A DNA stretch of 64,000 nucleotides, from positions 124,001-188,000 of the forward strand of contig NZ_JACBGH010000001.1 of NCBI RefSeq assembly GCF_013391695.1, given 5' to 3'. The translations under genes were made by a program, and so were the position numbers. The stretch comes from Thiomicrorhabdus cannonii. GTDB taxonomy: Bacteria > Pseudomonadota > Gammaproteobacteria > Thiomicrospirales > Thiomicrospiraceae. Each line of letters starts with the position of its first letter. The stretch's first letter is position 1. The notes under the pieces were generated by a model that worked only from the letters and a program-made list of their open reading frames with translations, was not told the origin of the DNA and did no database searches. Positions 39,595 through 50,867 of this stretch are shown here, piece after piece.

Positions 39595-41508
39595 TTAAGC
39601 CAATTTACCTGGGTAGTTTTCGATACCTGGGTTGTCCTTAACACCTTTAAGAACTGGGTGGTTAACTTTCTTCAGCTTCATGTCACCTTTGTGACGACGT
39701 AGGTAGTCAGCAGCAACGTCCCACATCAAGCGGCCAGAACCCACTGACTCAACCTGCGCCCAACCGGCAACAGTGTAAGTTTTGTTAGCTTCAAGCGGAG
39801 TGCCGTCGTCCAAACGCATGTCAGTAATACGCTTACCGAATTCTGCATTTGGCTCACAAGTGTAGTCCATACCACCTAGACGCACCATGTCACCACCTGA
39901 TTGCAGGTATGGGTCTTTTTGGAACAGGTTCTCACAGATACCTTCCAGGATATCTTTCATCTGCGCACCGGTCACAGTTGACTTGTAAGTCTCACCGTAA
40001 GTCATAGACGTTTCGTCCATGACGCGTTCCATCGTGATGGTTTCGCCTGCCAATACAGACGTACCCCAACGCACACCTGCAGACATTGCGATTTGCGCAT
40101 CGTGCTCTTCACGCAGCGAGTTTACGATAATCTGGTCCCATGTACCCATGAAGTTACCGCGACGATACAGCGTATCTTCAGCAACTGCCAACTCTTCGCT
40201 CAGGATTTCGCCGTAAGTTTTGCCTAGGCGCTCTTTGCTGTGGTAGTAGTCTGGGTTACGTGATTCGATGATGTCGGTGTCATACTTCTTCGCCCACAGG
40301 TGGTCGATGAAAGTAGTCACTTCTTTGTCTGCATCCAGAATGTTAGAGAATACAGGCAACAGTTTGTAGTCAACGCCTTTCAACTTACCGTTAACGATGT
40401 CCAGGTCCATACAGCCCACGAACTTACCGTTAGAACCGGCGTTGGTTACGTGACATACACCGCCTTCTGGTGTCTTAACTGGGATAGTCTTAGGAATACC
40501 GTCGTGCGTGTGACCGCCGAAGATCGCATCGATACCAGAAACGCGAGAAGCCATCTTGATATCTACGTCCATACCGTTGTGAGAGATCATCACGATGGCC
40601 GCTGGTTTTTCTTTTTCGCGGATCGCTTCAACCAACTCTTGCAATGCGTCTTCACGCAGACCGAATGACCAGTCTGGGAAGTTTGATTGTGGGTTAGCGT
40701 TAGCTGTACGTGGGAACGCCTGACCAACCACAGCGATACGCTCGCCGTTTACGATTTTGATGGTGTAAGGTTTGAATGCACGCGCTTCGTCTTCGCTGTA
40801 CAAACCAGTACCGTTGTGACGTTCTACCATTTCACGGTATGCGTCGCCGAACAAAGAGTCTTCTTTGATACGGATGTTTTGAGCCAGGAATTCACCCTTG
40901 AAGTTGTTCAGGTTACGCAACACTTCTTCTTCAGTGTAGGTAAATTCCCAGTGACCGGTCATGATGTCTACGCCCAACAGGTTAGACGCTTCAACCATGT
41001 CACCACCGCGTGTCCACAACGCAGTACCTGAACCGTGCCACAAGTCACCACCGTCCATAGTCAAGGTGTTTTCACGGCCGCCCGCTTGTTCACGCAGCTT
41101 GTCCAGCAACGTTTTAACGTGCGCGAAACCACCTACTTTACCGTAAGTTTCAGAAGCTTCCTGGAAGTTGATGTAAGTGAAAGCGTGCGCCAGAGGCGTA
41201 CCTTCTTGAACACCGATCTCTTTCAACAGTTTTGTCCCTACAACGTGTGGCAGCTTGCCGAAAGCAGGACCAGTGCCCAAGTTTACGTTTGGTTCACGGA
41301 AATAGATCGGCTTTAATTGCGCGTGTGTATCTGTAATGTGCAGAAGACGAACCTTGCCTTTCATTGGCTGGTTGTAGATTTCTGCAGATGCTTTAGCAGC
41401 CGCTGCCTTGTCTGCACCACCTGACATGGCGCTCGCTGTACCTGGTAACATCCCTGCGGCCGCAGCCATAGACATTACGTGTAAAAATTCACGACGATTT
41501 AAAGACAT
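39595..41508 (-). CDS. soxB: Thiosulfohydrolase SoxB
   Basis: SoxB hydrolyses the terminal sulfonate from SoxYZ-bound thiosulfate to release sulfate in the periplasm, using two manganese ions. The 637-residue protein begins with a Tat signal (NRREFLHVMSMAAAAGMLP). Calcineurin-type metal motifs are HITDTHAQLKP, MDGGDLWHGSGTALWTRGGDMV, SHNGMDVD and GGHTHDGIPK, and the C-terminal 5'-nucleotidase domain follows. Codon use leans to GGT, CGT, GTT and AAC, as in very highly expressed genes, unlike its neighbours. No soxXYZA is adjacent, as in the Thiomicrospira group, where sox genes are scattered. Confidence 0.97.
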   Translation of the reverse strand: MSLNRREFLHVMSMAAAAGMLPGTASAMSGGADKAAAAKASAEIYNQPMKGKVRLLHITDTHAQLKPIYFREPNVNLGTGPAFGKLPHVVGTKLLKEIGVQEGTPLAHAFTYINFQEASETYGKVGGFAHVKTLLDKLREQAGGRENTLTMDGGDLWHGSGTALWTRGGDMVEASNLLGVDIMTGHWEFTYTEEEVLRNLNNFKGEFLAQNIRIKEDSLFGDAYREMVERHNGTGLYSEDEARAFKPYTIKIVNGERIAVVGQAFPRTANANPQSNFPDWSFGLREDALQELVEAIREKEKPAAIVMISHNGMDVDIKMASRVSGIDAIFGGHTHDGIPKTIPVKTPEGGVCHVTNAGSNGKFVGCMDLDIVNGKLKGVDYKLLPVFSNILDADKEVTTFIDHLWAKKYDTDIIESRNPDYYHSKERLGKTYGEILSEELAVAEDTLYRRGNFMGTWDQIIVNSLREEHDAQIAMSAGVRWGTSVLAGETITMERVMDETSMTYGETYKSTVTGAQMKDILEGICENLFQKDPYLQSGGDMVRLGGMDYTCEPNAEFGKRITDMRLDDGTPLEANKTYTVAGWAQVESVGSGRLMWDVAADYLRRHKGDMKLKKVNHPVLKGVKDNPGIENYPGKLA

Positions 41509-41549
41509 TCGGTCTCTCTCCGTTTTAGTTTTAAGATGCGTAGCCCGCC

Positions 41550-41563
41550 AAACTCAACAGGCC
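41550..41563 (+). repeat. Truncated dispersed repeat in the soxB leader
   Basis: AAACTCAACAGGCC matches the left 14 bases of the repeat exactly, then diverges (ACC instead of GGG). It lies in the untranslated leader of soxB, about 40 bases upstream of the start codon. Confidence 0.7.
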
Positions 41564-41583
41564 ACCTTTAAAAAAGTCCAACA

Positions 41584-41612
41584 AATTTACTGGCCCGGGT
41601 GAGCAAAGTCAA
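41584..41612 (-). promoter_or_regulatory. soxB: Predicted soxB promoter
   Basis: On the minus strand TTGACT (41612-41607) and TAAATT (41589-41584) are 17 bases apart. The predicted transcription start is near 41577, giving a leader of about 70 bases. The -35 box coincides with one half of a perfect palindrome. Confidence 0.65.
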
Positions 41613-41633
41613 ATAAACGAAAGTTATTTGACT
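41607..41633. promoter_or_regulatory. Palindromic operator-like site overlapping the soxB -35 box
   Basis: AGTCAAATAA, 7 bases, TTATTTGACT: both 10-base half-sites are perfect. The centre is near 41620, about -43 from the predicted start, the classical position for an activator that contacts RNA polymerase. It is AT-rich and lacks a GC stem and T run, so it is unlikely to be a purL terminator. Confidence 0.65.
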
Positions 41634-41681
41634 ATAAGGTTTCTGGTATAAGAACTTTTGCTAACCCTATTAATTTAGCGC

Positions 41682-44600
41682 TTAGCCTACCCACTTACGC
41701 GCGTTGCGGAACAGACGCATCCAAGGCGCATCCTCCATCCAGTCATCTGGATGCCATGAGTTCTGCACGGTACGGAAAACACGCTCCGGGTGCGGCATCA
41801 TAATGGTGACGCGACCGTCCGGCGTGGTCAGTCCGGTCATGCCGTTGGCCGTGCCGTTCGGGTTGAACGGATAGGTTTCAGTCGGATTACCCTGGGCATC
41901 GACATAACGCACGCCAACCAATCCGTCCACTTGCGCGGCGTTACCGGCACCGAAATCCATGCGCCCTTCACCGTGCGCCACCGCCACCGGAATACGCGAA
42001 CCTTCCATGCCTTTCAGCAAAATAGAAGGCGATTCTTGAATTTCGACCAAAGAGAAGCGTGCTTCAAATTGCTCTGAGGTGTTGCGCACAAACGCCGGCC
42101 AGTTTTCCGCACCCGGAATAATCTCTTTGAGGTTGGAAAGCATCTGGCAGCCGTTACACACACCCAACGTAAAGGTGTCTTCACGCTTAAAGAAACCTTC
42201 AAACGTGGAACGCGCCGTTTCATTAAACAGAATCGAGTTCGCCCAACCGCGACCTGCGCCCAGCACGTCACCGTAAGAGAAGCCGCCGCAAGCGACCAGA
42301 CCGCGGAAGTCGTCAAACTTGACTGCACCGGACAGCACATCCGACATATGCACGTCAATCGCGTCAAACCCGGCTTTAGTGAAGGCCGCCGCCATTTCCT
42401 GCTGGCCGTTTACGCCTTGCTCACGCAAAATCGCCACCTTGGGACGCGACTTGCCGGCAAACTCGGCGGTGATGTCCTCATTAATATCAAAGGTCAATTT
42501 CACTGACAATTCGGTATTGGCATCATTGTCGATCGCATCGAACGCCTGCTTGGCGCAATCGGCATTGTCACGCAGCGCTTGCATACGGTAAGAGGTTTCT
42601 GACCACCACTTCTGCAACGTTTTACGCGGTTTGCTCAGTACCGCCTTACCATGTGCATTGATAACAATCTGATCATCCTGCACAGGCGAACCGATCCAGT
42701 GCGTCATTGCACCCAAACCGTGGGCGGCAAGAATATCGGCAACACGTGCCTTATCAGCAGACTTAACCTGCACAACCACACCCAACTCTTCGGCACACAA
42801 CGCCGCAACCGGCTCATTACCCAATGCAGACACATCCACATTCAAACCGCAGTGGCCGGCAAAGGCCATCTCTGCCAGCGTCACCAGCAAACCGCCGTCG
42901 GCGCGGTCGTGATATGCCACCATCAAGTCTTCGGCCAACATGGCTTGCGTGGCGTTGAACAGATTAATCAGGTCATCCGCTGAATCCAGATCGGCAGCAA
43001 TGTCGCCAATTTGGTTATAAACCTGTGCCAAACAACTCGCACCGATGCGGTTTTGGCCGCGACCCAAATCAATCACCAATAATTCCGTGTCACCCAGATC
43101 GGTACGCAACTGCGGTGTGACGGTTTTGCGCACATCTTCAACCGGCGCAAAGGCGGTGATGTTCAACGAAACCGGTGAAATCACCGCTTTGTCCTGATCG
43201 CCGTCTTTCCAGACGGTTTTCATCGACATGGAGTCTTTACCAACCGGCACGGCGATACCCAATGCAGGACACAATTCCAACCCGACGGTTTCAACGGCGT
43301 CATACAAAGCGGAATCCTCGCCCGGATGCCCGGCCGCGGCCATCCAGTTGGCGGACAATTTAATGTCGCTCATTTTGGCGATTTTAGTACAGGCGATATT
43401 GGTAATCGCTTCGGCAATCGCCAAACGCGCCGAAGCCTTCGGGTTAATCAGCGCGACTGGTGGGCGCTCGCCCGAGGCCATCGCTTCACCCGTATAAACA
43501 GTGTAATCAGAACAGGTAATACCCGCGTTGGCCACCGGCACCTGCCAAGGTCCGACCATTTGGTCACGCGTCACCATACCGGTGATGGTACGGTCACCGA
43601 TAGTAATCAAGAAAGACTTGTCGGCGATCGTCGGCAACTTCAACAGACGCTCAGTCGCCTCTTCCAAGTCAATCACCGCCGTTTCAAAACCGGGCTGAGG
43701 AATCAGGCGCGATTCGACCTTGCGATGCATCTTAGGCGGCTTGCCCAACAAGACATTCAACGGCATATCCACCGGATTGTTGTCAAACACCGTATCGTTC
43801 ACGACCAATTGCTGTTCGGCTGTCGCCTCACCCACCACCGCGTAAATGCAGCGTTCACGTTTACAGATTTCGATAAACTGATCGATCTTGTCCGGATAGA
43901 CCGCGATAACATAGCGTTCTTGCGATTCATTACTCCAGATTTCCATCGGCGACATGCCCGGTTCGTCATTCGGCACTTTGCGCAAATCGATACGCCCGCC
44001 TTTACCGGCATCGTTTACCAACTCAGGGAAGGCGTTGGAAATACCGCCTGCGCCCACGTCATGAATCGACGCGATTGGCGTGTCTTTTCCTAAATAAGTA
44101 CAACGGTCAATTACCTCTTGTGCACGACGCTCCATCTCCGGGTTTTCACGCTGCACTGATGCAAAATCCAATGCCTCGGAACCGGAACCGCTATCCACCG
44201 AAGACGCCGCACCGCCACCCAGGCCGATCAACATCGCCGGGCCACCCAGAATAACCAGCTTGGCACCGACCGGAATATCGCCTTTTTTGATATGCATATC
44301 ACGGATATTACCCAAACCGCCGGCCAACATAATCGGCTTGTGATAACCGCGCATCTCTTCACCGTTGTGCGTCATCAGCGGATTTTCATAGGTACGGAAA
44401 TAGCCGTTAATGGCCGGACGCCCGAACTCGTTGTTGAAGCCGGCCGCACCCAGCGGCCCTTCGATCATAATCTCAAAAGGCGTGACAATACGCCCGGGCT
44501 TGCCGTATTCACGCTCCCAAGGCTGTTTGAAACCCGGAATATTCAGGTTAGATACCGTAAAACCAGTCAGGCCGGCTTTAGGCTTGGAACCACGGCCGGT

Positions 44601-45551
44601 CGCGCCTTCGTCACGGATTTCACCGCCTGAACCGGTTGCCGCACCCGGCCAAGGAGAGATGGCCGTCGGGTGGTTATGGGTTTCCACCTTGATTTGGAAA
44701 TGCACCGGCTCTTCCGAAAACTCGTATTTACGTGTTTCCGGATTCGGGAAGAAGCGCGTCGCTTGTGGCCCTTCCAATACCGCCGCGTTATCACTGTAAG
44801 CGGACAGTACGCCAGCCGGACTCTTTTGATAGGTATTACGGATCATACCAAACAATGAATTTGGCTTGTCTTGACCGTCGATAGTCCAATCAGCATTAAA
44901 GATTTTATGACGGCAGTGCTCGGAGTTGGCCTGCGCAAACATCATCAGCTCAGCGTCTACCGGGTTACGCTGCAAACCGTTAAAGGCATCCACCAGATAA
45001 TCGATTTCATCCTCGCTCAACGCCAATCCCATTTGACGGTTGGCTTGAACCAAGGCTTCACGACCGCCGCTCAATACATCCACCGTCGTCATCGGCTTCG
45101 GCGTTTGATGCGAGAACAGGTTTTCCAGACCGGCAAAAGAGGTGTGTACCTGCTCCATCATACGGTCATGCAACGCCGCTTGCATTACCTGCATATCGGC
45201 TGCTGCAACACCTTTCATAAAGTAAACGATACCGCGCTCAATGCGTTTAACCGCATCAATACCGCAGGTGTGGGTAATATCCGTTGCCTTCGAAGACCAT
45301 GGAGAAATGGTACCCAAACGCGGCGTGACCACGCAGCTTTGCGCATCCAAGGTCGCATCCAGGTTATCTTGCGTATTGTTCAACAAGGTTTTTAAATGGG
45401 CGATATCATTCGCGCTTAACTCACCATTCAATTCGACAAAATAGACATATTGCGAACGAATCGCTTCGATTGACCCCAACGCCTTAAGCTTAGTCAACAA
45501 CTGATTTAAGCGATAGTGCGAATGCGCCGGTTTACCCCAAATAATCTGCAT
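41682..45551 (-). CDS. purL: Phosphoribosylformylglycinamidine synthase (large, fused form)
   Basis: PurL catalyses the fourth step of purine synthesis. The 1289-residue protein has the gammaproteobacterial single-chain layout: N-terminal PurS-like and linker regions, two PurM-like FGAM synthase halves ([33 protein letters not shown] near residue 295), and a C-terminal glutaminase with nucleophile Cys ([11 protein letters not shown]) and the HGEGR His. The start is the ATG at 45551, preceded by AAGGACAG; the longer frame lacks family support. Confidence 0.96.
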
Positions 45552-45576
45552 AGAACTGTCCTTCAAAAAACAAAAA

Positions 45577-45593
45577 CCCCCGAATCTCGAGGG
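45577..45593 (-). terminator. Terminator after bamC
   Basis: On the minus strand CCCTCG/CGGGGG (one G-U pair, 5-base loop) is followed by TTTTTG and a further T run. It separates bamC from purL. Confidence 0.75.
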
Positions 45594-45610
45594 CAAAAAA
45601 CTAAAATCGG

Positions 45611-49916: not shown

Positions 49917-50867
49917 TTACTTAACACGATCCTTCATCACTTCTGCCGGCAGGGTAAAGCCCTGCTCCAACGCCTTGTCACGGCAGTAGTTGATCGCGAA
50001 ATCCAACAACTCACCCACTGCACGATGGCGGAACTTATGCTTCTGACGTACATGCGAGAACGGACGTACAATCGGCGGATCCAACGGGATCGCTTTCAAG
50101 GTATTCAAACGCAGCTCTTTTGACAGCGTGGTGCGCGACACAATCGCCAGACCCACACCCGACTCCACCGCCATTTTGATAGCCTCAGGGCTGCCCAGCT
50201 CCATCACCACATTCAGGTCGCTGTAGCTCAACCCTTGCTCGCGGATGTAGTTGTCGATAACCGAACGCGAACCGGAGCCCTCTTCACGCGAAATGTAAGG
50301 GTACTTGCGAATCTCTTCAATAGAAACCCGGTCGCGTTTGGCCAGAGGATGATCCAACGGGCAAATCAACTGCATCTCATCCAGACGGCAGACGTCGACT
50401 TCCAGGTTTTTATTGTGAACCGGCGCTTCCACCAGGCCCAAATCGATCATATTGTTCTCGACCATCGAAACAATCGCATCGGTATTGCCGACCTGCAGGC
50501 GGATATTCACATCCTCAAACTGCTTTTTGAATGCGCCCAGCAGGCTCGGCAGCATATATTCGGCAATCGTGGTACTCGCACCGATCACCAAACTGCCGGT
50601 CACCTCACCGGTCAACTCGCGCACTTCACTGTTCATCTTCTCGTAATGCTCGAGAATCTGGTCGGCATAGTCATAAACCACTTTACCGGCCTCGGTCAGC
50701 GTGATCTTGTTGTGGGTACGATCAAACAGACGCGTATTGAAAAAATCTTCCAGCTGCTTTACCTGAAACGTCACGGCCGGCTGCGTCATATGCAGTGTTT
50801 CAGCCGCTTTGGTAAAACTCATGACTTTGGCAACGGTATGGAATACCTGAAGACGTCTATCTGCCAT
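49917..50867 (-). CDS. LysR-family transcriptional regulator
   Basis: The 316-residue LysR protein has an N-terminal winged helix (FHTVAKVMSFTKAAETLHMTQPAVTFQVKQLEDFF) and a periplasmic-binding-like effector domain (about residues 90-300). It resembles the CbbR/YeiE/CysL side of the family, members of which control carbon fixation or sulfur metabolism. No cbb or cys genes are adjacent, so its target is not inferable here. It is transcribed alone. Confidence 0.85.
   Translation of the reverse strand: MADRRLQVFHTVAKVMSFTKAAETLHMTQPAVTFQVKQLEDFFNTRLFDRTHNKITLTEAGKVVYDYADQILEHYEKMNSEVRELTGEVTGSLVIGASTTIAEYMLPSLLGAFKKQFEDVNIRLQVGNTDAIVSMVENNMIDLGLVEAPVHNKNLEVDVCRLDEMQLICPLDHPLAKRDRVSIEEIRKYPYISREEGSGSRSVIDNYIREQGLSYSDLNVVMELGSPEAIKMAVESGVGLAIVSRTTLSKELRLNTLKAIPLDPPIVRPFSHVRQKHKFRHRAVGELLDFAINYCRDKALEQGFTLPAEVMKDRVK

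Follow-up and report, generated by a model that had tools for sequence, protein, structure and literature searches.

Among described systems, the operators closest to those considered here are the CbbR operators of cbb promoters, at which a LysR-family protein uses TNA-N7/8-TNA or T-N11-A dyads arranged as recognition and activation regions (PMC2942843), the arrangement that we propose for the locus described below. Two other LysR-type proteins, the sulfite-binding YeiE and NdhR/CcmR, are the best solved-structure relatives, by sequence, of the candidate regulator that we propose. The sulfur-oxidation regulators that we found in the literature are ArsR repressors in Hyphomicrobium, and sox genes and their functional relatives are under the control of repressors of this type (SoxR, sHdrR and SqrR; PMC10451225, PMC12423496). 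Thiosulfate also strongly induces a Hyphomicrobium LysR gene accompanied by one for a sulfite exporter, an effect independent of SoxR and sHdrR (PMC12423496). In Hydrogenovibrio strain 104, which is without soxB, soxZ, soxC, soxY and soxX are up and soxA is slightly down on thiosulfate compared to hydrogen (PMC11439405). The titles and abstract openings that we found, with subscription literature outside their scope, describe no LysR regulator of sox genes in the Thiomicrospira group, and we take this absence as weak evidence of novelty. A two-component system in Acidithiobacillus and a CsoR protein in Thermus are also said, in part of the literature, to regulate sulfur oxidation. Little is known about how energy genes are switched in the obligate sulfur-oxidising autotrophs of the Thiomicrospira group.

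We analysed a window of 64,000 nt of Thiomicrorhabdus cannonii, whose own genome is denoted G000. The window contains a soxB gene for thiosulfohydrolase (39595–41508, minus strand, ATG at 41508), identified by its match to TIGR04486 (732 bits, cut-off 550). A sequence-only reading had reported a perfect palindrome with 10-base arms upstream of this gene, and such a palindrome is found directly in the window sequence, AGTCAAATAA-ACGAAAG-TTATTTGACT at 41607–41633. It sits between the soxB ATG and the end, at 41682, of an upstream ORF on the minus strand (41682–45596), which we take to be purL and whose listed TTG start is possibly too early. The palindrome is its own sole match within the window even at 3 mismatches, and none of 100 shuffles has one. 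A perfect repeat alone is not rare in the window, since there are six perfect inverted repeats (arms of at least 10, loop 3–10; 0 or 1 in each of eight Markov simulations), of which the five others resemble terminators or dispersed hairpins. The palindrome is also no evident terminator for the upstream gene, a reading that we rejected because a search of 41500–41750 found no terminator-like site. Judged by consensus only, no FNR/CRP-type site was seen at the palindrome.

The right arm of the palindrome contains the –35 box TTGACT (41607–41612, minus strand), followed after 17 bases by the –10 box TAAATT (41584–41589, minus strand). These boxes, which the same reading had pointed out, are the sole promoter-like match on the minus strand of 41500–41750, where shuffles give 0.2, and both are conserved in register across the genus. 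Its placement of the palindrome centre about 43 bases before the predicted start is likewise borne out, and the conserved element described below overlaps the soxB promoter at this activator-type position; all dyad positions given here rest on a predicted start assumed to lie about 7 bases after the –10. Separately, the window holds 19 copies of CTCAACAGGCC at no more than 1 mismatch (13 exact; 1.2 expected), mostly intergenic and including 3327, 3358, 23080, 23109, 41553 and 63036, with one copy in the soxB leader. These copies are often followed by GGGT and sometimes occur as inverted pairs, and may be a dispersed repeat or a DNA-uptake-like signal.

To compare soxB promoters we kept the best 80 of 549 soxB loci, among which the Thiomicrorhabdus loci are nearest, viewed the upstream DNA of 37 of those 80, and aligned 16 promoters including that of the window; we left out L019, which is truncated, L033, which is almost identical to the window, and more distant loci. 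The perfect palindrome is not conserved: it occurs exactly in 2 of 58 genomes, G000 and G004 (the L033 and G004 loci are probably the same record), and the outer left arm AGTCAA shows no conservation among the 16 aligned promoters. With up to 3 mismatches, some match is found in 12 of the 58 genomes, and in five (G000, G004, G011, G023 and G025) it coincides with the soxB element. The refuting condition set by the sequence-only reading, absence of the palindrome from the soxB promoters of close relatives, thus applies to the outer arms, whereas the inner part, ATAA-N7-TWAT, is retained there. This inner part belongs to a composite element in fixed register with the promoter, namely ATAAG-N6-CTAAT, 5–6 bases, ATAA-N7-TWAT, TTGACT, 17 bases and TAMATT. 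Among the aligned promoters, TTxATTTGACxTT is invariant at the letters given, the –10 is TAMATT in all 16, and the ATAA, beginning 15 bases before the –35, is conserved in 16, 15, 16 and 16 promoters at its four letters, while the second half of this dyad is TTAT in 10, TAAT in 5 and TGAT in 1.

A model built from the sequences of the 16 promoters was run on the genus genomes and gave matches at E ≤ 1 in all 32, with loci given for the best match of 30. In 28 of these 30 loci the composite element precedes soxB in the same layout; the G006 match, 49 bases from a contig end, is among the two outside this count. G003 has a match with an E-value of 0.001, outside the fetched loci, and G002 a weak match (E 0.42). 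In G007 (L140, ∼1501–1560), the matched soxB-type element ends inside the proximal dyad and is followed by sequence reading like a transposase gene, the result of an insertion or an assembly join. Several Hydrogenovibrio and Thiomicrospira rows retain TTTATTTGACTTT or parts of the dyads, two others (L041 and L043) have no sensible match to the element, and the second soxB copies and Sulfurivirga rows are without the conserved block as such.

The sequence-only reading had held that the site does not look like a LysR site, a judgement that the conserved core does not support. This core (ATAA-N7-TTAT in the window, 41613–41627, minus strand), a putative activation site centred near –43, holds the T-N11-A of LysR-type dyads in 15 of the 16 promoters, the window included. 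The upstream dyad, a putative recognition site near –64, fits TNA-N8-TNA in 12 of the 15 relatives, and departs from it in the window and in L013, L014 and L017, three of the nearer relatives. It starts 36 or 37 bases before the –35, and the start-to-start distance between the two dyads, taken by alignment column, is 21 (11 promoters) or 22 (5 promoters) in all 16, some upstream dyads being degenerate. Positions near –65 and near –35/–43 are the usual recognition and activation positions of LysR regulators, and soxB has the spacing of about two helical turns, relative to predicted starts, that characterizes a two-dyad LysR-type operator. In the window species the upstream dyad, ATACCAGAAACCTTAT (41634–41649, minus strand, placed by register with relatives, most of which have ATAAG-N6-CTAAT there), is decayed, scoring 2.2 bits in the minus orientation with a matrix that includes the G000 sites of two genes. 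We can only guess that this decay is linked to the perfect proximal palindrome in the same species.

Sites related to the soxB element were found before other genes, for most of which the labels come from reading ORFs, with family models run on selected proteins only. Names were confirmed for SoxC (603 bits, cut-off 420), SoxY (173, cut-off 125), a second SoxB (736, cut-off 550) and RuBisCO (813, cut-off 489), and the FCSD, Sulf_transp and DUF2202 Pfam domains are above cut-off. The SQR-like, persulfide-dioxygenase-like and TolC-like proteins are below the NCBIfam cut-offs, and for the cydA-like and SLAC1-like proteins, each compared with one library, no family reached the chosen thresholds. 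In G000, the 16-promoter model scores 36.9 bits at soxB, which is in the training set, and its next ten matches (8.5–14.3 bits, E 0.1–8) fall at seven places. Four of these precede sulfur-oxidation genes (persulfide-dioxygenase-like, soxC, fcc and SQR-like), and the others precede cydA-like, cbbM and tolC-like genes. The pattern ATWAG-N6-CTWAT has 16 sites in this genome compared to 7 for the reversed control pattern, including sites at soxC, soxYZ, fcc and the persulfide-dioxygenase-like gene; in G025, G005 and G018 there are 16, 12 and 21 sites compared to 8, 8 and 16. We viewed all 49 sites of the latter three genomes. All four genomes have matches at soxC, at the persulfide-dioxygenase-like gene and at the tolC-like operon, the exact pattern occurs before soxB in two and before soxY in two, and dyads precede a csrA-like gene (L167, L163 and L190) and a DUF2202 gene (L161, L160 and L192) in the three genomes other than G000. 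The remaining sites look like chance occurrences, in line with the controls; among the G000 sites, C2:88107 and C9:40414 recur in other genomes, while C3:126157, C6:55601 and C13:19781, the last two inside ORFs, were set aside as likely chance.

The layout of these sites resembles that at soxB to different degrees. The persulfide-dioxygenase-like promoter carries ATTAG-N6-CTTAT, 6 bases and ATAA-N7-TTAT in all four genomes, the soxB layout with a start-to-start distance of 22. At soxC the upstream dyad starts 33–34 bases before TTGAAG-17-TATCAT in all four, 3 bases nearer the –35 than at soxB, and we found no clear proximal dyad in this promoter. The tolC-like operon promoter (L106, L186, L202 and L209) has two dyads 35 bases apart in three genomes and one by the exact pattern in the fourth; these dyads surround a –10, an arrangement that suggests repression. 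The two-dyad spacing of a LysR-type operator is absent at the soxC and tolC-like promoters, and sites of the form ATAAG-N6-CTTAT lack T-N11-A. We also noted ATTAG-N6-CTAAT upstream of mraZ-like genes (L153, L185 and L194) in three of the four genomes. Between convergent slt-like and cysS-like genes (G000:C2 near 88,107; L145, L162, L183 and L205, ∼1501) lies a candidate small RNA: in all four genomes, a TTGAC-type –35 and a TATAAT-like –10 are separated by 17 bases, with ATTAG-N6-CTAAT within the spacer, and are followed by ∼50 nearly invariant bases with TCCTCCTC and then a terminator hairpin. The fold z-score of this candidate is –5.7, and a comparison of these loci with Rfam gave no matches.

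We scored upstream regions with a matrix trained on the upstream dyad in soxB promoters of other species (15 promoters, none from G000). The highest sulfur-gene scores, for fccA (24.1), the persulfide-dioxygenase-like gene (22.0) and soxC (19.8), are above those of all 97 control upstream regions (maximum 13.7), and that of soxY (13.8) is marginal to this maximum. The SQR-like gene (11.3) and a second full-length soxB of the same genome (11.2; L246:6384–8288, G000:C4) are within the control range and have no strong site. Non-sulfur genes score as high as sulfur genes (tolC-like 20.1, cydA-like 18.1 and SLAC1-like 18.0). The site of a yeeE-like gene (16.6) was set aside because it coincides in part with the probable ribosome-binding site and with the start codon, even though this gene is preceded by ATAA-N7-TTAT. 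The controls came from the window and 14 loci, with shared regions of divergent genes counted twice and soxB's own region included, and the comparison is biased because all promoters tested except that of the second soxB had been found via motif matches. Among the genes that the sequence-only reading had named for a scan, soxC, fcc and, marginally, soxY have related sites, and the SQR-like gene has no strong one (soxXA was not located). Related dyads are present before soxC, fcc and the persulfide-dioxygenase-like gene, and the set looks like a sulfur-oxidation regulon that also takes in non-sulfur genes.

The best candidate for the regulator is, in our judgement at slightly worse than even chances, a LysR-type protein encoded in the window at 49917–50867 (minus strand), one of ten HTH_1 matches in the genome, chosen from family models, structure–sequence relatives and co-occurrence. 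Its best NCBIfam match is the selenium-associated LysR family (243.1 bits, cut-off 250), and it is below the cut-offs of the CbbR equivalog TransRegCbbRRhodb (172.9 bits, cut-off 450) and the YeiE equivalog (199.5 bits, cut-off 480). The nearest solved structures by sequence are 5y2v (E 1.4e-38; named NdhR in PMC12423496), 7erp (E 1.1e-27) and 8sbh (YeiE, E 1.3e-26), and STTI, LVEAP and EGSGSR of the effector domain align with SSTI, LIEGP and KGSGTR of 7erp. We describe it as a YeiE/NdhR/CbbR-like protein. An orthologue is present in 31 of 32 genus genomes (absent from G006, which is 82% complete) and in all five genomes searched from other genera of the family. At E ≤ 1e-60 it occurs in 61 of 143 genomes of the class Gammaproteobacteria. 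SoxB is above cut-off in 60 of these 143 genomes; 50 have both proteins, 11 only the LysR, 10 only SoxB and 72 neither (Fisher P 1e-17, uncorrected for descent). In one Hydrogenovibrio the LysR gene adjoins soxB convergently, the sole LysR that a profile search found in the flanks of the best 80 of 549 soxB loci, and in G088 rhodanese-like and persulfide-dioxygenase-like genes precede it on its own strand. These neighbourhood hints amount to two cases only, because many of the other orthologues viewed adjoin phoH-like or permease-like genes. The promoter region of the LysR gene has a site scoring at least 14 in 3 of 27 loci, and in G000 it has none (7.4). A different YeiE-like LysR gene, beside a YeiH-like gene (L100), was rejected: it is unlikely to encode a general regulator because it is found (E ≤ 1e-45) in only 2 of the 143 genomes, and not in G035 of the same family.

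We can only infer the regulator, because an ArsR protein co-occurs equally well with SoxB, and boxes of this kind also serve CbbR paralogues. If the dyads were operators of a persulfide-sensing ArsR repressor of the SqrR/BigR/HlyU type (G000:C4:27187–27507), persulfide would release the repressor and derepress the genes. This protein has cysteines 38, 85 and 104, of which 38 and 104 are spaced as in SqrR. Its homologues, counted at E ≤ 1e-20, occur in 71 of the 143 genomes (54 with SoxB, 17 without, 6 with SoxB only and 66 with neither; P 2e-17, the genomes being related by descent) and share 58 genomes with the LysR, so that co-occurrence, equal for both, failed as a means of choosing between them. 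The –10 between the tolC-like dyads also fits a repressor, and SoxR and sHdrR, which are known to repress sox genes, belong to the ArsR family (PMC10451225, PMC12423496). Against this, the one HlyU operator compared by eye in PMC10509353 is without ATWAG-N6-CTWAT. The 11 ArsR homologue loci viewed show no recognisable sox, sqr or fcc gene; by ORF reading, the genes around them resemble ctpA, gpmI, grx or secB, and several of the loci include a rhodanese-like gene. Two dyads 21–22 bases apart upstream of a –35 are, moreover, unusual for a repressor, and on balance we consider ArsR control of these sites improbable.

Just as improbable, in our estimate, is binding by a CbbR paralogue (encoded beside cbbM, beside cbbL or at the orphan C1:552890), which would couple CO2 fixation to sulfur oxidation. 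The genome has three CbbR-like genes (the CbbR and form II labels are by ORF reading), CbbR boxes are TNA-N7/8-TNA (PMC2942843), and the cbbM promoter beside a cbbR-like gene has a weak model match (14.0 bits) at which ATCAAATAA-N7-TTATTGATTT resembles the soxB palindrome. With an upstream-dyad matrix that includes the G000 sites of two genes, the cbbM region nevertheless scores only 5.0, and no ATWAG-N6-CTWAT site was found in the 3-kb locus of any of the three CbbR-like genes. The least probable of the readings dispenses with a specific regulator: the conserved stretch would be only an extended core promoter, with an AT-rich upstream element, –35 and –10, and the palindrome would be due to chance. 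The AT-rich block beside TTGACTTT and the unconserved outer arms agree with this; however, a matrix of the upstream dyad alone, built on other species, ranks fcc, soxC and the persulfide-dioxygenase-like gene above 97 control regions, and in a related Hydrogenovibrio the expression of sox genes changes with the electron donor (PMC11439405).

We return to a LysR-type operator. It is likely that a regulon with such an operator exists. Somewhat less likely, though still favoured on the sequence comparisons, is the fuller reading, in which the soxB palindrome forms the half nearest the promoter of a two-part LysR-type operator that controls soxB and, through sites like it, a sulfur-oxidation regulon. 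What we infer is that a LysR protein binds there, that it activates and does not repress, and which signal it reads. Both dyads would be occupied by a LysR tetramer, perhaps of the protein encoded at 49917–50867: the upstream one near –64 and the ATAA-N7-TWAT dyad near –43, where it abuts the –35 box. A sulfur-oxidation intermediate, once bound, would move the tetramer into a contact that activates RNA polymerase. The signal might be sulfite or a related oxyanion, because the effector domain of the candidate resembles that of the sulfite-binding YeiE. More speculatively, and with the chances rather against it, sulfur lithotrophy in Thiomicrorhabdus and its relatives could have as its master activator one LysR protein of the YeiE/NdhR branch, sensing an intermediate such as sulfite, with orthologues acting similarly in SoxB-bearing Gammaproteobacteria at large. 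Its regulon would then extend past enzyme genes to csrA and an efflux operon, and maybe to a small RNA. A shared operator and a named, conserved candidate protein make the question of regulation testable, and sulfur genes of uncultured relatives might be predicted with the aid of the operator.

Compared to the SoxR, sHdrR and SqrR repressors, the candidate comes from another protein family, with the comparison of operators limited to one. Compared to the CbbR operators, the sites described here lie before sulfur-oxidation genes and have a consensus of ATWAG-N6-CTWAT with ATAA-N7-TWAT, for a regulator that is a candidate. Finally, in contrast to YeiE and NdhR, the candidate would control energy metabolism and not the export or assimilation of sulfite.
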